Assembly (NCBI RefSeq): GCF_004295665.1
Contig: NZ_CP034759.1
Coordinates: 1,488,001 to 1,552,000, forward strand
Direction: 5' to 3'
Source: Litorilituus sediminis
GTDB taxonomy: Bacteria > Pseudomonadota > Gammaproteobacteria > Enterobacterales > Alteromonadaceae
DNA: 64,000 bases
In this document: positions 40,305 through 50,188 of the stretch, piece by piece
Position numbering within the stretch: position 1 is the stretch's first letter
Layout of the letters: each line of letters opens with the position of its first letter
The notes under the pieces: model-generated
Told to the model about the DNA's origin: nothing
The model's database searches: none
What the model saw: the letters and a program-made list of their open reading frames with translations, nothing else
Translations under genes and position numbers: made by a program

Positions 40305-40389
40305 ATTATCTTAGCGTCCATTACTAAAAACCTGTCTATACTTAGCTATATCTCTTTAATTACTTTAGTCATTATTAAGGTTGCTAAGT

Positions 40390-43300
40390 ATGGGACTGCT
40401 TCCCCAACTTATATTACTTGTCGTTATGCTTATAAGTTGTTCAGCCCATGCTACAGCACGTTTTGACCATTACACAATTGAACATGGTTTATCTCAAAAT
40501 ACCATTACCAGCATTGTTGAAGATAAATACGGCTTTATTTGGTTTGCTAGCCAAGACGGTTTAAATCGCTTTGACGGCTTTGAGTTTGATAACTTTTATG
40601 CTGACACCAACAATAGCCAGACATTAAGCGCAGATTATATCTATGATCTTTTTATCGACCAACAAGGGCAATTGTGGCTTGCAACTCGTGGCGGCGGATT
40701 AAACCTATTTGATTATGAAACCGAGCGCTTTGAACACTTTACATTTTCTGATGATAATAAAAACAATCAAGCTAATGATATTCATCAAATCATTCAAGCC
40801 AATGATGAAGAGCTATGGCTAGCCACCTACGAAGCTGGCATTCAAGTGTTTAATATACGCAGCCAAACATTTAGCCCACTCAAGCAATTCAATCAACATA
40901 AAGATACGATTAATGCTGTTATTACGAGTTTGTTATTAGATAAAGACACCCTTTGGCTTGGCACACAAAGCCAAGGACTTATGCAGTTTAACCTGAACAA
41001 CAGTCAACTAAAGCACCATAGACAAAACAGCGCAACCTTAGGTGCAATTAGTGACAATCAAATAAGCGCTATTTTTAAGGACAGTCAAAAGCAGATTTGG
41101 GTAGCGAGTGCTAATGGCCTAAACCTGTATCAAGCAAGTAGCGACACTTTTAAGCACTTTCTGCATAATAAGGACGACAGTAACTCACTTAGCCATAATG
41201 CCATTGTTGATATCGTTGAAGATAACCAACATAACTTATGGTTAGCGACCTCAGGTGGGATTAACAAGATAAGTCATGATGGTAAAACCATTAGCCGTTT
41301 TCTTCATGCCGCTAATAATAAATACTCACTTGCAGGTAATTTTATCAATACTTTATTTATAAGTGATAACAACAATTTATGGGTTGGTCACTTTACTGAC
41401 GGCATCAGCAAAACATCATTAGCAACGCCATTGTTTAAACATATAGACACCGAAACATATGATCAACAAGCGCCTTCAAGTAACAATATCTGGGCCATAT
41501 TTGAAGATCATCGACAAAATACCTGGGTAGGTGTCGATGGTGGTGGCCTGCAAGTCTATGATAAAAATAAACAATTGATAAAGCGTTACCTGCACAACAA
41601 TACAGATGAAAATTCATTATCCAGTAATAGAGTTTGGGCTATTGCCCAGGAAAGCCCAGGAATATTTTGGATTGCCACCTTTGATGCTGGCATCAATAGA
41701 TTAGATACCCACACAGATACCATTGAACGCTATCTTCATCAGGCAAATAACAACAATAGTCTTATTGATAATAAAGTGGTTGCCCTTCATATAGACTCAA
41801 ATAACTACCTATGGATAGGCACTAAAGCAGGGCTTGATAGACTCGACCTTGCCAGCAGAGAATTCAAACATTTTCGCCATCAACCGCAAGCGAAAAACAG
41901 TATTAGTTATAACTATGTGCTCAATATTTTTGAAGATTCATCTGGCATCATATGGTTATGCACTTATGGCGGCGGATTAAACGCTTATAATCCTAAAAGT
42001 AAATTATTTAGCCATTACCAGCATCATGCCAATAAGCCAAATACCATAACTAGCAACAAGGTCATGGCTGTAAGTGAAGACAGTAGCGGCAATTTATGGA
42101 TATCAACAACCGACGGCCTAAACAAGCTTGATAAACAACGGAGAAACATTACCCGCTTTACTAAAGCGCAAGGACTAAAAAATGAAACCATTTATAGTGC
42201 CCTTGAAGGTAATGATGGCGGTATTTGGTTAACCTCAAATAGAGGGATTTCTCGTATCGATAAAAAAGACTATACCATCACTAACTTTACTTTAGCTGAT
42301 GGCTTGCAAAGCTATGAATTTAACTCTGGCGCTTACTTTAGCTCACCTCATGGTCAGCTATATTTTGGCGGTATTAATGGCTTTAATTACTTTAACCCGC
42401 AAGACTATATCAATATCCAAAAAAACTTACCGGTCACCATCACTAAAGTGCGACTGTCTAACACTCCTGTTGAAATACAGCCTAAGAACAAACAAAGTGA
42501 TAAACAATTTACCTTAGAAAAGGCAATATATTTACTTGATGAAATCACCTTAAGCCACAAAGAAAACTTAATTTCATTTGAGTTTTCTACCCTATCATTT
42601 CAAGATGAGGCCAGTATTAGCTATCAATACATGCTGGAAAACTTAGACAAGGACTGGATTCAAACAAATCATAAGTCACGCATTGCAACCTATACCAATA
42701 TACCTCCAGGTAACTACAGCTTATTGATAAGAGCCAAGCAGCAAAGTGCCCAATGGGGCGAGCAAGTCACACGTTTAGCCATTGAAGTTACGCCAGCACC
42801 TTGGCTATCTTGGTGGGCCTATAGCCTGTATATCTTAATTTTTGCCAGCCTTGCCATAATTATCTTTTGGCGTAGGTACCAAAACTTTATCTTATTAAAA
42901 GAGAACGAAGAGCGTTTAGCCCTCTCCTTATGGGGCAGTCAACGAGAGTTGTGGGACTGGCATATAGTTGAAAAATACATCATCAGAGTTAACTCCATTA
43001 CCAATAACCACAATGGTAAAGAAGCCTTTACTTTAGAAAGTTTAAGAAAAACCACCCATCCAGATGATGTAGAAGCGGTTATTCATGCCTTCAAATATCA
43101 CAAAGATAATGACTCAGACTTTTTAGATATCACCTATAGACGACAAGATCCTAAGCTAAATTGGCGCTGGTATAGAAGCCGAGCGAAAGCGGTATCGCGT
43201 AATAAGCAAGGTAAAGCCCAACGAATTGTTGGCACAATTGAAGATGTACACCAACTGATTGAAGCGCAACAACAATTACAGCAATTAAACAGTGAGCTTG

Positions 43301-44127
43301 AGCAAAGAGTAAAAGCGCGCACTGCTGAGTTAACTGATGCCTTAGCTGAGCTAACTAACACACAAGAACAGCTATTAGAATCAGAAAAAATGCTCTCTTT
43401 GGTAAGCTTAGTTACTGGCGTTGCTCATGAACTTAATACACCATTAGGTGTTGTGCTAACAGCACTATCACAATTTGAGAATAATCAGCAACAACTTAAA
43501 GCTGCACTACAAAACAAAACCTTAAGCCAAGAAGCATTAGATAAATATATTCAAGCTAATAGCGAGTGCATTGCCCTCATTGCCAGCAATAGCCAAAAAG
43601 CGGCTCGCTTAGTTAAAAACTTCAAAGCCTTATCACACTCATCTGAACATGAGCCGAAGAAATTATTTCATGTTAAACAGCTGCTTGAGTTTGCTTACCA
43701 AGAATGTCAATTACAAACTCAGCACAATACCATTTCGTTACAACTCATCTGTAGTCAGCATATTGTCTTTAATAGCTATCAAGAAACATTAAAATCAATC
43801 TTTAAGCAATTAATTGAAAACTCCTGTTTACACGCATTTGAAGAAACAACTAAGCAAACGCTCACCATCACCATTGAGGTAACTGAACAGGATAATGCTC
43901 TTATTTTTGACTATAAAGACGACGGTCAAGGGTTAAAAGATGAGATTGCCGATAGTGTTTTCGAGCCTTTTGTCACCACCAAACGAGGTAGTGATTGCGT
44001 CGGCTTAGGTATGCCAATACTGTATAATCAAATAGTTCACAGCTTCAAAGGCAGTGTGCAATTAGTGTCTAATGCCTCTGCTGGATTTCACCTTATCATT
44101 AGCCTGCCCAAAGATAGCTCAAACTAA
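40390..44127 (+). CDS. Beta-propeller (two-component regulator-like) sensor histidine kinase
   Basis: The 1245-residue membrane kinase starts with a signal sequence (LLPQLILLVVMLISCSAHA). A large periplasmic sensor made of propeller repeats follows, with many copies of the form DxxGxLWxAT-x-GGLN, then a Y_Y_Y-type domain (about 680-790). One membrane helix comes next (WWAYSLYILIFASLAIIIFW), then a PAS-like domain (about 840-950) and a coiled coil. The kinase core has the phosphoacceptor His1013 in GVAHELNTPLG and ATP-binding DDGQGL and GLGMPI. Unlike Bacteroidetes hybrid systems of this layout, it has no receiver or DNA-binding domain, and no response-regulator gene is near. The ATG at 40390 is preferred to a TTG nine bases upstream. 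The signal is unknown; polysaccharide or peptide products are possible. Confidence 0.92.
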   Translation: MGLLPQLILLVVMLISCSAHATARFDHYTIEHGLSQNTITSIVEDKYGFIWFASQDGLNRFDGFEFDNFYADTNNSQTLSADYIYDLFIDQQGQLWLATRGGGLNLFDYETERFEHFTFSDDNKNNQANDIHQIIQANDEELWLATYEAGIQVFNIRSQTFSPLKQFNQHKDTINAVITSLLLDKDTLWLGTQSQGLMQFNLNNSQLKHHRQNSATLGAISDNQISAIFKDSQKQIWVASANGLNLYQASSDTFKHFLHNKDDSNSLSHNAIVDIVEDNQHNLWLATSGGINKISHDGKTISRFLHAANNKYSLAGNFINTLFISDNNNLWVGHFTDGISKTSLATPLFKHIDTETYDQQAPSSNNIWAIFEDHRQNTWVGVDGGGLQVYDKNKQLIKRYLHNNTDENSLSSNRVWAIAQESPGIFWIATFDAGINRLDTHTDTIERYLHQANNNNSLIDNKVVALHIDSNNYLWIGTKAGLDRLDLASREFKHFRHQPQAKNSISYNYVLNIFEDSSGIIWLCTYGGGLNAYNPKSKLFSHYQHHANKPNTITSNKVMAVSEDSSGNLWISTTDGLNKLDKQRRNITRFTKAQGLKNETIYSALEGNDGGIWLTSNRGISRIDKKDYTITNFTLADGLQSYEFNSGAYFSSPHGQLYFGGINGFNYFNPQDYINIQKNLPVTITKVRLSNTPVEIQPKNKQSDKQFTLEKAIYLLDEITLSHKENLISFEFSTLSFQDEASISYQYMLENLDKDWIQTNHKSRIATYTNIPPGNYSLLIRAKQQSAQWGEQVTRLAIEVTPAPWLSWWAYSLYILIFASLAIIIFWRRYQNFILLKENEERLALSLWGSQRELWDWHIVEKYIIRVNSITNNHNGKEAFTLESLRKTTHPDDVEAVIHAFKYHKDNDSDFLDITYRRQDPKLNWRWYRSRAKAVSRNKQGKAQRIVGTIEDVHQLIEAQQQLQQLNSELEQRVKARTAELTDALAELTNTQEQLLESEKMLSLVSLVTGVAHELNTPLGVVLTALSQFENNQQQLKAALQNKTLSQEALDKYIQANSECIALIASNSQKAARLVKNFKALSHSSEHEPKKLFHVKQLLEFAYQECQLQTQHNTISLQLICSQHIVFNSYQETLKSIFKQLIENSCLHAFEETTKQTLTITIEVTEQDNALIFDYKDDGQGLKDEIADSVFEPFVTTKRGSDCVGLGMPILYNQIVHSFKGSVQLVSNASAGFHLIISLPKDSSN

Positions 44128-44170: not shown

Positions 44171-46339
44171 TTAAAAGCTCATATTTACCCCTAAGGTAAC
44201 ACTTGGGCCAAAGCCAGGTAAAAAGCTAGGCTGAGCTTGGTTAGAGTAACCACGAATAACATACGAAGTTTGATAAACCTCATCCGTTAAATTTTGCCCA
44301 TCTAGGTATAGCTTGATTTGCTCATTCACTTGATAGGCCATTTGCAGGCCAACTAGCGTATATGAATCTTGATATTGACTGTTGGCATGATCAATTGCTG
44401 TATCGTCTATCTGCCACTTAATATTCGGGGCAATATAGAAACCATTCGCCATTTGATAGCGCAGCTCAAACTGAGCTAAATGAGTTGGAATACCGGCAAT
44501 TTGGTTACCATCATACTCGCCACCATCAAAGTAAAAATCACTGTAGTTATACACTAACTTAGCATCAAAGTTATCGCCTTTGGCTAGCATATCTTGAGCA
44601 AAGCCTTGAATCACTTCTAACTCAACACCTTGATGTATAGTACCCGCATGGTAGTTATCAGTTTTACCATTAACAGCAAAGTCATTAACAATAGAGATAA
44701 GTTCGTCATCCACTTCACTGCGATATAACGCGACATTCCACTGGGTTTGAGCAACCTGCCCTGACGAGCCAAACTCAATTGTTGTTGATTCTTGCGCTTG
44801 TAAATCATTTAAACTTATTTTAGCGGCCGCAGGATTTTTAGGGCTTACCGTTGAAGAAACCAACTCCCAATAGGTTGGCGCTTCACTGGTACTACTAACA
44901 TTGGCAAATACACGTACCTCGTCACTTACTTGATAGTTAATACCAATTTTAGGATTGATGCTATCGTAGCTGTTTTTTTGATTATGCAGCAATGACATTT
45001 CATCTGTTATATCTCGGTTCGCCTGCACCCATTGTGCTGCAACTGCTAACTGCACATCGTCATGAAGCTGTGCTTGCCACTGCAGCGCTAACATTAAATT
45101 ATTAGCATCGAACGCTAAACGACCATACTCCTGCATCTTGCTACCGTTCATCGGGTTATTGGCATAATACCGGCGGGTCATATCACTTTGGCTTGCTGAA
45201 AATGACACAAAAAGCTCATCATGTTCGCTAAGGTAATCACCGGTTAAGTTCAATGAATATTCCATACCATAATCATCAGTATCGGTAACACTGTGCGATA
45301 GTGGATCAGTAAAGGTATCATCTACTTGTTGATAAAACACACCAAGCTCTTGCATTAAATTATCATTGCTAAAACGTGTTTTATTGGCAACTCGAGCCAT
45401 TTGCGAGTCGCGATGCGGGTCACGGTTATAGACATTAAGCAGTTTATCTAGCGGCGTATTACCATCACCTAATACTTGCTCAGGGTTAGATAATGCTCTT
45501 GCTTTCGGTACTACAAAGGGAATGTCAAAAACGTTATCTGTCCACTGAAAATAAGTTCGATTGGCAATATGCTGAGTTAGGTTGACACCTATATTTCCGT
45601 TAACACTGCTGCGATCTGACTCACTGTGATTACGATAACCATCATAGCTGTCTTTAGAAGCGCTAATAAAATAATCCCAATTATCACTTTGACCGGCAAG
45701 CTGACCACTCGCGCCAAGTCGAGCATCACTACCGTACTCTAAGCGCACACTAGGGCTGGTACTGGTACCATTTTTACTGATCATATTAATCGCGCCGCCT
45801 AAGGTCGTGCCGCCATACCTAAGCGCATTAGCACCACGATATACAGCCACCATCTCAGCAGATTTTGGCTCTAAAAAGCCAATAACGAAACTACCGTCTG
45901 CTTGGTTTAACGCCAAACCATCTTGTAATAGTTGTACACCGCGATTGACCGGATTACTTTGTACGCCAGAGCCACGAATATTCAATCTAGGTTGATCATT
46001 ACCACCAAAAAAGCTTTGCATAATAATACCCGGCTCAAAACCAAGTGCATCTTGCAAGGTTGCTTGGCGGGCAGGCAGTTTTTCAATCTCAACTAAATTA
46101 GTGCCGCCAGCCACTTTTTTTAATTCAGCTCTGGCTTCATCTAAGGTTGGAAATGCTCGTTCTACCGGCCTGCTCGATACCTCAATATGTTCATCAATAA
46201 CAATATCGGCTTTACCCGTATCAGCCACTACGGGTGAAGAGCACATAGCTAAAGTTAAACACAGTGACAAATATTTTCTTTTGCTCTTACACAGTGATTT
46301 ACTTTGTTTTACTAAACCACGGTTATGATATGTAAACAT
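44171..46339 (-). CDS. TonB-dependent outer-membrane receptor
   Basis: The 722-residue product has a signal peptide (cleavage likely near VVADTG, about residue 42), a plug domain (about 70-190: LPARQATLQDALGFEPGIIMQSFFGG, in part; YRGANALRYGGTTLGGAINM) and a 22-strand barrel ending in VTLGVNMSF with a terminal Phe. The DEARAELKKVAGGTNLV segment before the plug marks a subgroup often annotated as FecA-like. It is the last gene of a five-gene operon with an ABC transporter and a CopD-like protein. The operon promoter carries a Fur box, so the substrate is probably iron- or metal-linked, but it cannot be named from sequence. Confidence 0.93.
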   Translation of the reverse strand: MFTYHNRGLVKQSKSLCKSKRKYLSLCLTLAMCSSPVVADTGKADIVIDEHIEVSSRPVERAFPTLDEARAELKKVAGGTNLVEIEKLPARQATLQDALGFEPGIIMQSFFGGNDQPRLNIRGSGVQSNPVNRGVQLLQDGLALNQADGSFVIGFLEPKSAEMVAVYRGANALRYGGTTLGGAINMISKNGTSTSPSVRLEYGSDARLGASGQLAGQSDNWDYFISASKDSYDGYRNHSESDRSSVNGNIGVNLTQHIANRTYFQWTDNVFDIPFVVPKARALSNPEQVLGDGNTPLDKLLNVYNRDPHRDSQMARVANKTRFSNDNLMQELGVFYQQVDDTFTDPLSHSVTDTDDYGMEYSLNLTGDYLSEHDELFVSFSASQSDMTRRYYANNPMNGSKMQEYGRLAFDANNLMLALQWQAQLHDDVQLAVAAQWVQANRDITDEMSLLHNQKNSYDSINPKIGINYQVSDEVRVFANVSSTSEAPTYWELVSSTVSPKNPAAAKISLNDLQAQESTTIEFGSSGQVAQTQWNVALYRSEVDDELISIVNDFAVNGKTDNYHAGTIHQGVELEVIQGFAQDMLAKGDNFDAKLVYNYSDFYFDGGEYDGNQIAGIPTHLAQFELRYQMANGFYIAPNIKWQIDDTAIDHANSQYQDSYTLVGLQMAYQVNEQIKLYLDGQNLTDEVYQTSYVIRGYSNQAQPSFLPGFGPSVTLGVNMSF

Positions 46340-46354
46340 AATATTTCCTTAAAA

Positions 46355-46795
46355 CTACCATTGAATATAAAACATGTTTTTGGCGAGTAAGATAATTCCC
46401 ACTTGATGACAAAAAACACTTAAATGAATAAATTTGAAGCGACTGCAGCTCATTTTTCCGTTACGAGAAAGGTACATTGCGGTAAAAAAGTGCCCTAAAA
46501 CACTAAATGCTAAGAGCATTTTTACTGATAACAATTGCCCAAAAGAAGACGACATCAAGCCAGAGAAATGCGGAAAATGATGGTGAGCCATCGCCAGCCC
46601 AGAAAGAAACAACACAGCCAAAACATAAGGCATTATTTTTCGCGCTCGCCCAGTAATACCTTGCTGTAATAGCAGCATGGTATCAGCAGGAATTTTCTTT
46701 CGAATAGACTCTAAAAAGAGTACTTCAAAGAACACCACGCCAATAAAAGTAACGCCAGCAAACAAATGTAATGTAATTAAAATAGGATAGGACAC
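46355..46795 (-). CDS. CopD-like four-helix membrane protein
   Basis: The 146-residue product has four hydrophobic segments (about residues 5-28, 53-70, 86-108 and 122-142) with several His residues near the membrane faces (His10, an HHH group and HFPH around residue 72, His102). This resembles the small CopD-family proteins linked with copper or haem handling at the inner membrane. It begins two bases after the ATPase stop and 15 bases before the receptor gene, so it belongs to the same operon. The family assignment is tentative and a role in copper is not shown by the sequence. Confidence 0.65.
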   Translation of the reverse strand: MSYPILITLHLFAGVTFIGVVFFEVLFLESIRKKIPADTMLLLQQGITGRARKIMPYVLAVLFLSGLAMAHHHFPHFSGLMSSSFGQLLSVKMLLAFSVLGHFFTAMYLSRNGKMSCSRFKFIHLSVFCHQVGIILLAKNMFYIQW

Positions 46796-46797
46796 GG

Positions 46798-47517
46798 TTA
46801 GTACACCTCATGACGATAAAATTGATTAAGAAATATTGCCCGCTCTTCCTTGTTAGCAACACTATGCCAATCAAGGTCATTGCCGGTTTTTAATACCAGT
46901 GCCAGCTCAGTCAAAGGCAGAACTTGTTCAATGTTATGGCTGACATAAATCATGCTGGTTTGTGGGGTTAACAACTTAGCTAACAGCTCGGTTAATTGGC
47001 TAGCTAAAGGGGTGTCAAGGGCACTAAAGGGTTCATCTAAAAGCAGTAAATCGGGCTTAACGGCAAAAGCGCGCACTAAAGCAACTCGCTGCGCCATGCC
47101 GCCTGAAAGTTGATGTGGATAATGATTAATACAGGCTAATAAGCCAACTTGCGCCAGTAATGCTTTAATACGCTGCTCAGCTTCACGCTTAGCAACGCCA
47201 CTAGCTTTTAGCACTTGATAGATATTTTCTTGTACCGTAAGCCAAGGTAGCAGCCTCGGCTCTTGAAATACGTAACCAATACGCTGCGCATGATTGACCA
47301 CTTGTCCCTGTGTCGGAGCAACTAAGCCTGCGATCAGCTTTAAAATGGATGACTTACCTAAACCACTTTGCCCTAAAAGCGCTAATTTTGAGCCCGCTTT
47401 TAAGGTAAACGACATATTAGCAAGCACATCATGGTGATTAAATGACAAGCTCACTTGATGAAATTGAACCAGCTCGCGGATTTTTTCAGCCTTCATCGCC
47501 TCATTAAAACGCATCAT
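46798..47517 (-). CDS. ABC transporter ATP-binding protein, SsuB/TauB type
   Basis: The ATPase has Walker A LLGQSGLGKSSILK, the Q-loop FQEPRLLPW, signature LSGGMAQRVALVRAF, Walker B LLLLDEPFSALD and the switch His in YVSHN. The pattern of residues around the Q-loop (RLLPW) is that of the nitrate/sulfonate/taurine group. The ATG at 47517 is chosen: it shares one base with the permease stop (TAATG) and a GAAGAGGG stretch lies before it. A TTG at 47535 is the only longer option. About 239 residues. Confidence 0.93.
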   Translation of the reverse strand: MMRFNEAMKAEKIRELVQFHQVSLSFNHHDVLANMSFTLKAGSKLALLGQSGLGKSSILKLIAGLVAPTQGQVVNHAQRIGYVFQEPRLLPWLTVQENIYQVLKASGVAKREAEQRIKALLAQVGLLACINHYPHQLSGGMAQRVALVRAFAVKPDLLLLDEPFSALDTPLASQLTELLAKLLTPQTSMIYVSHNIEQVLPLTELALVLKTGNDLDWHSVANKEERAIFLNQFYRHEVY

Positions 47518-48392
47518 TAGCTTGCCCTCTTCCAACGCAATAAATAATTTTGCACAGGTCTTAACAAGACTAATTCTAATATCGCGACCAATAACAAACT
47601 GACCAATACCCAGGCATAAAGCTCTGACGTATCAAAGTTACTACTTGCATTAGCCAGCTGATAACCTATGCCTTGATGCGCCCCCAATACTTCAGCTAGC
47701 ACCACAATTCGCACGCCGCTACAGCAAACAATCACTAAGGTGGCACATAAAGGAGCTGCAATGGCAGGGATATAAATTTGACTAAAGCGCTGCCATAAAG
47801 AAAAGTGATAAACATGGGCTAATTCAAGATACTGATTATCAATTTGCTCAATATTTTTCTGCGTATTTACATAAATGGTCGGAGATAACAGCAGCACAGT
47901 AATAAAAACGACCATGCTCGAGCCCATGCCAAACCACAACATAGCAAGTAGCACAACAATAACGGGTGGCACGCTCATTAATAACCAGCGGATGGGTGAT
48001 AAAAACGCTTTTAACCAAGCGCGTCTTCCTGCAATGATCCCTAAACAAAAACCGATAAAACTTGCTACAGATAAGGCCAGCAATAACCGCTTAAGTGATG
48101 TTAACAACACCAGCCAAAAATCACTCTGTTGGCAAAGCTCAATTAACCGCGTTAACGTTTGTACAGGCGATGCTAAAATAAGCTCGCTAAGCTCCATAGA
48201 TAAAAGCTGCCAAAGTAAAATAACACTCGTGATACCAAGCCCTTTAGCAAGTAAAGTGGTTTTATTGTCTATAACAGTCGAAAACTTTCCTTGTTTAAAC
48301 TCTTCCTGCTTTACCTTAACGCTCGCAGCCTGATCACGCTTTGCAAGGCTCTGCTTACTCGCTAACAAGGCCATATTTTCTTGTGCCGTCAT
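47517..48392 (-). CDS. ABC transporter permease, SsuC/TauC type
   Basis: The 291-residue inner-membrane protein has about six helices in its last 230 residues and the permease motif region VYHFSLWQRFSQIYIPAIAAP (in part), in which the EAA-like loop contacts the ATPase. The N-terminal 45 residues are polar. The ATG at 48392 is preferred: it begins four bases after the stop of the binding-protein gene. A longer frame reaching 48449 would overlap that gene by 53 bases. The family moves small organic anions or thiamine precursors. The substrate here is unknown. Confidence 0.92.
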   Translation of the reverse strand: MTAQENMALLASKQSLAKRDQAASVKVKQEEFKQGKFSTVIDNKTTLLAKGLGITSVILLWQLLSMELSELILASPVQTLTRLIELCQQSDFWLVLLTSLKRLLLALSVASFIGFCLGIIAGRRAWLKAFLSPIRWLLMSVPPVIVVLLAMLWFGMGSSMVVFITVLLLSPTIYVNTQKNIEQIDNQYLELAHVYHFSLWQRFSQIYIPAIAAPLCATLVIVCCSGVRIVVLAEVLGAHQGIGYQLANASSNFDTSELYAWVLVSLLLVAILELVLLRPVQNYLLRWKRAS

Positions 48393-48396
48393 AGTG

Positions 48397-49383
48397 CTAG
48401 TCCCAATAAAAATCACTATCAGGTAGCTTTTTACCAATGCGATTAGCATCGGTATTTGCTAATAATCGATAAAACGACTCTAAATGAGGTCGCGCTTGTT
48501 TAGCCGGAACAACGTCTAAGCCAGTATTTTTGATGGCTTGAATAAGCGCGGGTTTGGGCATTTTAGGTAAATAATTAGTAACAATATCGGCACATGCATC
48601 AACATTTTGCTGGCACCAGAGAGCCGCCTTGCTATACGCATGATTAATGCTATTCACTAACACTTTGTTTTGATTAACACTGGTATTAGCAACAAGCCCA
48701 GCTTGTGGAATTTTAGGGCTATCGGGAAATGTTTGTTGCCACGCCTCACTAATATTTAACGCTCGTACAAGCGGTTGTTTGCCTTGTTGCTTACTTTGAA
48801 AAAGTACAATGGAAGTTAACGGCTCTATTAATAAGGCATAATCAACCTGTCCTGCTAACAGCAGTTGCGCTGAATCAGCAAAGTTATGACTTTGCCTGAT
48901 GTTAACTTTATTTGCTTGCTTACCCAATTGCGCCGTTAACAGTTGCTCAAGCACTATGTTAGGCATGTCGTTTTTAAAAGGGACAACAATTTCCTTACCA
49001 ACAAGCTGTTCAATCACATTGCCAGCGCGGTAATGTTCATCCCGGGTCACCACCGCCATAATGTCCCATATCGCAACATTAAGCAGGCTTAAACTATGAC
49101 CACGATTATAGAAAGTTGCCGCAAGGTTTGATGGCATAGCGGTAAAGTCCACTTGCTTGCCCACCACCATGGCACGCAATTGCTGAGGATTTTTCCAGCG
49201 AGTAAAAGAGAGCTTAACGCCTTTATTTGCTAAAGGTTGCTGAGTGGCCATCACCATCATAGGGTAACTGATCACCGCAGCAGGCCCCGCTAAAGCAACA
49301 TCTTCCACAGTGCTTTCATCGCTATGAGCTGCAAAGCAAACACCACAAGCAAAAAAACTAATAAAAGTAATAATATTTTTCAC
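48397..49383 (-). CDS. ABC transporter substrate-binding protein, SsuA/NMT1-like
   Basis: The 328-residue product has a signal peptide (MKNIITFISFFACGVCFA, about 18 residues) and the two-lobed periplasmic-binding layout of the SsuA/ThiY/NMT1 group. Family-like segments are VDFTAMPSNLAATFYNRG and AGQVDYALLIEPL, which correspond to the hinge and second-lobe regions. A Cys near the cleavage site leaves a lipoprotein possible but the lipobox is not convincing. It is the first gene of the operon. A Fur box lies 10-31 bases before its start. Confidence 0.88.
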   Translation of the reverse strand: MKNIITFISFFACGVCFAAHSDESTVEDVALAGPAAVISYPMMVMATQQPLANKGVKLSFTRWKNPQQLRAMVVGKQVDFTAMPSNLAATFYNRGHSLSLLNVAIWDIMAVVTRDEHYRAGNVIEQLVGKEIVVPFKNDMPNIVLEQLLTAQLGKQANKVNIRQSHNFADSAQLLLAGQVDYALLIEPLTSIVLFQSKQQGKQPLVRALNISEAWQQTFPDSPKIPQAGLVANTSVNQNKVLVNSINHAYSKAALWCQQNVDACADIVTNYLPKMPKPALIQAIKNTGLDVVPAKQARPHLESFYRLLANTDANRIGKKLPDSDFYWD

Positions 49384-49393
49384 AACAAACTAC

Positions 49394-49414
49394 AAATGAT
49401 AATGATTTTCATTT
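49394..49414. promoter_or_regulatory. Fur box
   Basis: The 21-base sequence, beginning AAATGATAATGATT and ending TTCATTT, is palindromic at 9 of 10 paired positions and matches the Fur consensus GATAATGATAATCATTATC closely. It lies just upstream of the binding-protein gene and over the predicted transcription start, so Fur-Fe would repress the operon. Confidence 0.8.
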
Positions 49415-49443
49415 ATAGTAATACACATTGTTACTTTATCTAC

Positions 49444-49457
49444 TTGATAAATATCAA
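49444..49457. promoter_or_regulatory. Perfect FNR/Dnr-type box
   Basis: TTGAT-AAAT-ATCAA is an exact match to the FNR-family consensus TTGAT-N4-ATCAA. If the -10 of the ABC operon is TACTAT at 49420-49415 (minus strand), the box centre is about 42 bases upstream of the start, the position of class II activation. It is also 36 bases before the start codon of the regulator gene. Confidence 0.8.
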
Positions 49458-49492
49458 GACACTAATTAACAGAAGGAATTTTAGGAGACATC

Positions 49493-50188
49493 ATGCCTAA
49501 TTCAATAAACAACTGCACAACTTTACTGCAATTACTTAATACCGAGCAGAGGGAACTAATCGAGCAACAAAGTACGCAAATTGAGCTAGCCGCAGGTGAT
49601 TGCCTATTTAATAAGGGCGATAGCGCAGACAACATTTTCTTGGTCAAAAAAGGCAAAGTAACCCTATACCGCTTAATGCCAAATGGCGAGCAAAAAGTAT
49701 TTAAAGTATTTATGTCTGGTGGTGTTATTGCCGAAATGGCGGTGTTTATGCAGCCAAGACAATATCCTATGTCGGCACATATAGACCAAGCAAGCTCAAT
49801 TGTTTGTTATAGCTATCAAAGCTTTACCAAACTATTTACCAGCTACCCTGAACTCGCACTCAATGTCATCAGCTTTATCAGTAATCGAGTCGGTCAGTTA
49901 ATGAACTCCATGGATATGCTAACGCAAGTCAATGCGAATCAAAGGCTAGTTATGCACTTTGCTGAAATTTATCAAAAACAAAAACGCCAAGACAATCGCT
50001 TTACCCTACCAAACACTAAAAAGGTATTAGCTTCTCAACTTGGCATCACACCAGAAACCTTATCGAGATTATTTAACAAGTTAAAATTTAATGGCCTAAT
50101 TAAAGAATCGGGTGCTTGTATTACGGTACCAGACATTAATGGCTTATGCCGAGAAGTCGATTTAGTACCTGATATTTTTCATAATTAA
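49493..50188 (+). CDS. Crp/Fnr-family regulator, Dnr-like
   Basis: The 231-residue product has a cyclic-nucleotide-binding-fold N-terminal domain (GDSADNIFLVKKGKVTLYR), a dimer helix, and a C-terminal winged helix with recognition segment TPETLSRLFNKL. The residues Glu188, Ser191 and Arg192 are those with which FNR reads TTGAT half-sites. The cysteines that hold the FNR [4Fe-4S] cluster are absent (no CxxC near the N-terminus), so it is of the Dnr/cluster-less kind; Dnr proteins sense NO through haem. AGGAG lies five bases before the ATG. It is divergent from the TonB/ABC operon and probably controls it and itself. Confidence 0.88.
   Translation: MPNSINNCTTLLQLLNTEQRELIEQQSTQIELAAGDCLFNKGDSADNIFLVKKGKVTLYRLMPNGEQKVFKVFMSGGVIAEMAVFMQPRQYPMSAHIDQASSIVCYSYQSFTKLFTSYPELALNVISFISNRVGQLMNSMDMLTQVNANQRLVMHFAEIYQKQKRQDNRFTLPNTKKVLASQLGITPETLSRLFNKLKFNGLIKESGACITVPDINGLCREVDLVPDIFHN

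Follow-up and report, generated by a model that had tools for sequence, protein, structure and literature searches.

The window analysed here, a 64,000-nucleotide stretch of the Litorilituus sediminis genome (contig NZ_CP034759.1, positions 1,488,001 to 1,552,000), contains a putative import operon of five packed genes on the minus strand and, divergent from it on the plus strand, a gene for an FNR/DNR-type regulator. In the order of transcription, the operon encodes a periplasmic binding protein with an SsuA/NMT1-like fold (48397..49383), an ATP-binding cassette (ABC) permease (47517..48392), an ABC ATPase (46798..47535), a small CopD-like membrane protein (46355..46795) and a TonB-dependent receptor with plug and barrel (44171..46339); the regulator, of the Crp/Fnr family, occupies positions 49493..50188. 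This layout, proposed in an initial annotation made from the sequence alone, was recovered from the list of open reading frames (ORFs) of the window with all six genes in place. The longest ORF of the permease gene (48449-47517) overlaps the binding-protein gene, and the internal ATG at 48392, 4 bases past the binding-protein stop codon, is the likely start.

The permease (PF00528), the ATPase (PF00005), the receptor (PF07715, 47.4 bits; PF00593, 118.3 bits) and the regulator (PF00027 and PF13545) score over the Pfam cut-offs. The label NMT1-like from the initial annotation stands as far as the fold is concerned, the binding protein sharing the NMT1/SsuA fold in fold comparison (nearest solved sequence, 3hn0), but at the level of family cut-offs, neither it nor the label CopD-like does: the binding protein scores 17.1 bits against PF09084 (NMT1; gathering score 20.5), its VitK2_biosynth (Pfam) and SsuA_fam (NCBIfam) matches are likewise below threshold, and the CopD-like protein reaches 25.5 bits against PF05425 (cut-off 32.1). 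Residues H10, K92 and H124 of the CopD-like protein are invariant in all seven aligned sequences, and this conservation of two histidines and one lysine suggests that the protein may bind haem b. FecB/HemT-type haem and siderophore ABC importers combine Fur control with a TonB receptor that feeds a periplasmic ABC importer; the window operon differs from them in its PF00528 permease and its SsuA/NMT1-fold binding protein. At E 0.01, the sole Pfam match of the permease is to PF00528, with none to the FecCD-type permease family, in support of the earlier remark that this importer class is unusual for a TonB/Fur system. The base composition of the operon (0.416 vs 0.396 for the window) gives no sign of a genomic island, and no relatives of the ATPase were found in the viral collection scanned. 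Adjoining the operon, at window positions 40381-44127, is a gene whose product, 1248 residues long, combines propeller, Y_Y_Y, PAS and histidine-kinase domains.

The promoter region contains a perfect TTGAT-N4-ATCAA box (TTGATATTTATCAA, 49457-49444 on the minus strand), as initially annotated, and a -10-like TACTAT on the same strand (49415..49420) at 30.5 bases from the box centre, a spacing that suits the position of a class II activator. Exact boxes occur 41 times in the host genome, compared to 10 occurrences of the reversed pattern. The Fur box had been placed at 49394-49414; the best minus-strand 19-mer, scored against a Fur consensus, is a Fur-like site at 49416-49398 that agrees at 15 of the 19 positions and lies over the expected start site. 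By itself, this match is unexceptional (on the plus strand, six window positions score 14, two of them here), but its place over the start site and its conservation in four sequences make it more credible. In an alignment of the window with Colwellia NORP29 (locus L025), Colwellia psychrerythraea ND2E (L026) and a gammaproteobacterial metagenome-assembled genome (MAG; L027), the order of FNR box, -10-like element and Fur-like site recurs, with one change in the box of L026 and small changes in the -10 element of L025 and L027. The combined control by iron and by low oxygen or nitric oxide (NO) that had been proposed is thus supported by predicted sites and by their conservation; the shuffle fractions of the Fur-like sites are 0.005 in the window and 0.0 in L027, although the sites of the two Colwellia loci are not significant individually (0.10 in L025 and 0.06 in L026).

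The divergent regulator, which recurs in relatives, contains ETLSR in its helix-turn-helix; this fits the E..SR recognition-helix motif that we take to be typical of FNR/DNR-type regulators. Only C8 and C37 are found within its first 40 residues, so that the iron-sulfur cluster pattern of FNR is absent, as the initial annotation had it. The regulator is a candidate for the protein that acts on the FNR box. The complete gene order of the window is common to L025 and L026, and in the latter, the regulator gene is followed by MetH-like and HPF-like ORFs, an arrangement also seen in the window (read from the sequences); in the fetched stretch of L027, the CopD-like and receptor genes are missing.

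A scan of genome contigs identified 339 places that encode relatives of the binding protein. We inspected 87 loci, namely the best 80 of these 339 matches, six further loci (L011, L012, L013, L022, L023 and L024, of which L022 and L023 come from the same genome) and the window itself. Genes in these loci were called as simple ORFs, and absences are unreliable because many contigs end near the module. Among the best 80 of the 339 matches, the carriers include Colwellia, Arcobacteraceae and other Campylobacterota, Comamonas, Thauera, Acidovorax, Methylophaga and MAGs labelled as further phyla; of the 295 genomes of the host's order, 6 encode the binding protein (E 1e-20), as do 4 of 369 in the host's class (profile search, E 1e-25). 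The gene order proved to be kept in other genomes, one of the checks proposed with the initial annotation. With profiles, a permease was labelled in 73 of the 87 loci and an ATPase in 72 (the latter label also catches other ABC ATPases); NnrS is encoded in 61 loci, in 60 of them on the same strand, and a TonB receptor in 47 with the widest profile. Less common neighbours are CopD-like (7 loci, in two groups), CobN (6), Spy-like (5), ferritin (5), MotA (4), DUF2149 (4) and HsmA (2) genes, as well as a FeoB-like cluster in four loci, on the opposite strand in L090 and L093. Pfam matches of 99 other neighbours from low-GC loci include FeoB_N (4), hemerythrin (3), cupredoxin (3) and imelysin (2). 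A protein of the FmdE family recurs near the module in 11 of the 87 loci (for example, L033:13006-13650). In L051, L055, L059 and L097, the binding-protein gene is flanked by two TonB receptor genes, followed by a CobN gene, and no permease is labelled; this arrangement suggests that the binding protein may also function without an ABC transporter. A distantly related importer at L013:7450-15536 is divergent from genes that, read from their sequences, resemble an NADH-linked iron hydrogenase.

We compared the zones of 130 bases upstream of module genes in the 87 loci (50.5 kb in total) with the remaining 1.33 Mb. The zones contain 14 exact TTGAT-N4-ATCAA boxes in 13 loci, against none for each of 19 other arrangements of the half-sites; in the rest, the exact box occurs 11 times and the other arrangements 0 to 8 times. 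When one letter was relaxed, 24 boxes were found in the zones (22 loci) vs 15 in the rest. A nearby Fur-like site that was matched by no more than 5% of shuffles accompanies 12 of 25 relaxed FNR-type boxes located ahead of module genes, and the other 13 have none. The FNR-Fur double control hence appears frequent but not general, given that 65 of the 87 loci have no such box in the zones.

The host is a denitrifier with NirS and NosZ: in addition to nirS, its genome contains other d1-type genes and a cluster that resembles nosRZDFYL (the other gene names being read from the sequences). An exact FNR box lies inside the nir cluster (L121:7398), and immediately upstream of nirS there is a variant that differs in one letter (L121:6587). 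The tracking of the module with nir and nos genes that had been suggested as a check was observed, with exceptions. A NosZ match of E 1e-30 or better was obtained for 33 of the 53 carriers searched (one assembly takes up two rows) and for 34 of the 295 genomes of the host's order, which is not a matched comparison because the carriers span several phyla and the background is the host's order alone. Of 54 carriers, 32 have cytochrome d1 proteins, 11 have NirK over cut-off and 40 have at least one of the two (L036 was left out of this nir/nos search). Within the host's order, d1 is found in 18 of the 295 genomes but in three of the six carriers of the binding protein (hypergeometric p 0.003), NosZ is likewise found in three of the six (p 0.02), and in the three closest versions (host, G111 and G152), d1 and NosZ are present in all three (p 0.0002 and 0.001, respectively); these p values are optimistic because they include the host itself, G111 and G152 are congeneric, and the copy in G152 is short while that in G111 is cut by a contig end. 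Among the exceptions, G033, G294 and G249 gave no match to either NosZ or d1, G033 having NirK.

These observations lead to the question of the cargo, for which copper or haem had initially been suggested. Iron-linked and haem-linked neighbours (ferritin, FeoB, HmuY, CobN/HmuS-like and HsmA), together with the Fur-like box, tilt the balance towards iron or haem, although copper-linked neighbours occur as well. In Colwellia NORP29, genes for HmuY (31.3 bits, cut-off 27), MotA/ExbB, DUF2149 and a CobN-type protein adjoin the operon, in likeness to the Hmu system of Bacteroidota (hmuYRSTUV), which, according to PMC12583661, couples a TonB receptor to a periplasmic component, is used under anaerobic, low-iron conditions and includes HmuS, which strips iron from haem anaerobically. 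Unlike the window operon, the six-gene operon as presented in that paper has no SsuA-type ABC importer; conversely, the window operon itself contains neither HmuY nor CobN. In five of the six CobN loci, the receptor is 40-67% identical to that of the window. Elsewhere in the host genome (L115:4300-11681; C1:4094299-4101680), a MotA-DUF2149-CobN/HmuS-like set is divergent from a gene of a haem-receptor family whose product exceeds haem/haemoglobin cut-offs (392.2 vs 323.75 and 366.1 vs 316.85); the host CobN is 40% identical to that of L025. In L021, HsmA passes its cut-off, and the HsmA family is described in PMC10338468 as haem sensing or detoxifying. NnrS is portrayed in an excerpt of PMC11526790 as a haem protein that shields the iron pool from NO, and in Bacteroides fragilis, iron released from haem is imported by Feo (PMC6460266).

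Several observations weigh against haem as the cargo and against the link to denitrification. The window receptor scores 118.6 bits against the NCBIfam model of PqqU and 118.0 against siderophore receptors, compared to 77.2 and 68.6 against haem receptors, and no module receptor whose score was examined passes a haem-receptor cut-off. The binding protein of the window has no conserved histidine or cysteine; position 182, a histidine in 87% of the aligned rows, is a tyrosine in the window. The methionine-rich insertion that is a feature of HmuS (PMC12583661) is missing from the CobN proteins, the densest 60 residues containing 4-7 methionines in the six proteins; CobN from a B12 (cobalamin-type) operon (L117) likewise scores best to HmuS; and related genomes carry the MotA-DUF2149-CobN set without the binding protein. 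Cupredoxin genes adjoin the module at L091:10627-11867 and L102:11016-11486, after the receptor, binding-protein and Spy-like genes, and barrels that resemble copper receptors, below the TonB-copper cut-off, are encoded beside the binding protein at L011:12630-14537 and L022:7017-8903. As for denitrification, the genome of L027, which shares the promoter, gave no match to NosZ or d1; the statistics for the order comprise six genomes including the host, two of them congeneric, with one copy a short frame of 93 residues and the other contig-cut; and NnrS is encoded in all 10 genomes tested, whether or not the binding protein is present, the host's own NnrS gene being located apart from the operon (C1:1884167). 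Three further comparisons were set aside as uninformative: ranking of CobN proteins against the PDB did not separate the B12-operon CobN from HmuS; NCBIfam tallies over 45 receptors did not discriminate (TonB-hemin 37, TonB-siderophor 36); and the haem-receptor motifs FRAP/YRAP and NPNL/NPDL are present in some module receptors and absent from that of the window. The L011 and L022 barrels have no Pfam plug match and are encoded in two genomes of 2.0 and 2.5 Mb.

Therefore, weighing the evidence for and against, we consider iron in some form to be the probable cargo, with the odds close to even that it is haem or another iron porphyrin. A non-haem iron complex, that is, a siderophore or a ferrous chelate, with the nearby haem proteins reflecting nothing but denitrification, seems unlikely to us, even though the siderophore-receptor model fits the window receptor as well as PqqU does, the Fur-like boxes would suit such a cargo, and in the Campylobacterota loci L035, L042 and L047, the importer is accompanied by ferritin or FeoB-like genes, with no receptor within the fetched stretch. 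Against it, no siderophore-synthesis family appears among the 25 families listed, of 150, for the 99 neighbours, and the presence of HmuY and CobN among the neighbours favours a tetrapyrrole. Supply of free or chelated copper to NosZ and other copper enzymes is an improbable function: the host does encode NosZ, the cupredoxins and the sub-threshold TonB-copper-like barrels point the same way, NnrS is counted as a cuproprotein in PMC6769254, and one published NnrR regulon includes a copper receptor gene (PMC1274295). The control sites, however, are Fur-like rather than copper-type, iron-storage and iron-transport neighbours are somewhat commoner, several carriers have no NosZ match, and the host, which carries a d1 protein cluster, gave no match to NirK at E 1e-30. 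With respect to NosA/OprC-type copper receptors (TIGR01778), the likeness is confined to the L011 and L022 barrels; this model is not among the NCBIfam matches of the window receptor.

Import of pyrroloquinoline quinone (PQQ), or of another organic cofactor, by a PqqU-PqqT pair combined with an ABC transporter draws on the facts that PqqU is the nearest solved relative of the receptor and that the first Foldseek match of the binding protein is PqqT with PQQ. These similarities are offset by the replacement of the PQQ-stacking residue: the aromatic residue at position 99 is the PqqU signature (PMC12124388) and aligns with Pro130 in the window receptor (counting along the 6v81 chain). The aligned stretches do not extend to Arg304 and Arg365 of PqqU. 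Furthermore, the equivalog cut-off of PqqU in NCBIfam is 1200 bits, vs 118.6 for the window receptor, and PqqT, despite the similar fold, is absent from the binding-protein profile search up to E 10; we therefore give this possibility very little credence. Equally far-fetched is an ordinary sulfonate or thiamine-precursor importer that lies beside a receptor by chance. The fold class of the binding protein would agree with such a function, as would the best NCBIfam matches, none of which reaches its cut-off, of the permease (SaoP and SsuC) and of the ATPase (PhnT2 and similar generic models); yet the linkage to TonB receptors and NnrS recurs across many lineages, together with FNR and Fur-like sites.

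The reading we favour, with a rough probability of 0.5, is that the operon is an iron-acquisition system for respiration under iron-short, anoxic and NO-producing conditions, as in denitrification, with haem or another iron porphyrin as the likeliest cargo. Under this scheme, iron-loaded Fur would block the promoter, and once iron becomes short, binding of an FNR/DNR-type activator at about -42 would switch it on. The TonB receptor would carry the iron complex across the outer membrane, the SsuA-fold protein would serve as its periplasmic acceptor, and inward transport would be the task of the permease and ATPase; the CopD-like protein might assist in hand-off or iron release. In relatives, NnrS or HsmA accompany the importer. 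Haem so imported would feed cytochrome cd1 and other haem enzymes.

Among the matches listed in the open-licence literature, no title or abstract describes the module, and neither do the excerpts of PMC9409073, PMC11526790, PMC1274295 and PMC6769254; a possible link to Bacteroidota in PMC10434189 came to nothing, the apparent mention of NitT there being the beginning of a different word. The single parts of the module are of known kinds and their combination appears to be new: the transport module is widespread but little described. We tentatively propose, at somewhat less than even odds, that it represents an unnamed family of haem or iron-porphyrin importers that use a binding protein of the SsuA fold, are coupled to NnrS or to different haem-binding membrane proteins and in many cases have an FNR-Fur double promoter; such a family would tie iron supply to denitrification in Gammaproteobacteria, Betaproteobacteria, Campylobacterota and perhaps further phyla known from single MAG contigs. 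Denitrification and the reduction of nitrous oxide depend on haem, iron and copper, and the routes by which these are supplied under anoxia are only partly known. If the proposal is correct, NnrS would gain a functional context, a cargo would be suggested for transporters that resemble taurine or nitrate importers by sequence, and a shared uptake module wired to iron and to anoxia or NO signals would make metal supply directly testable.

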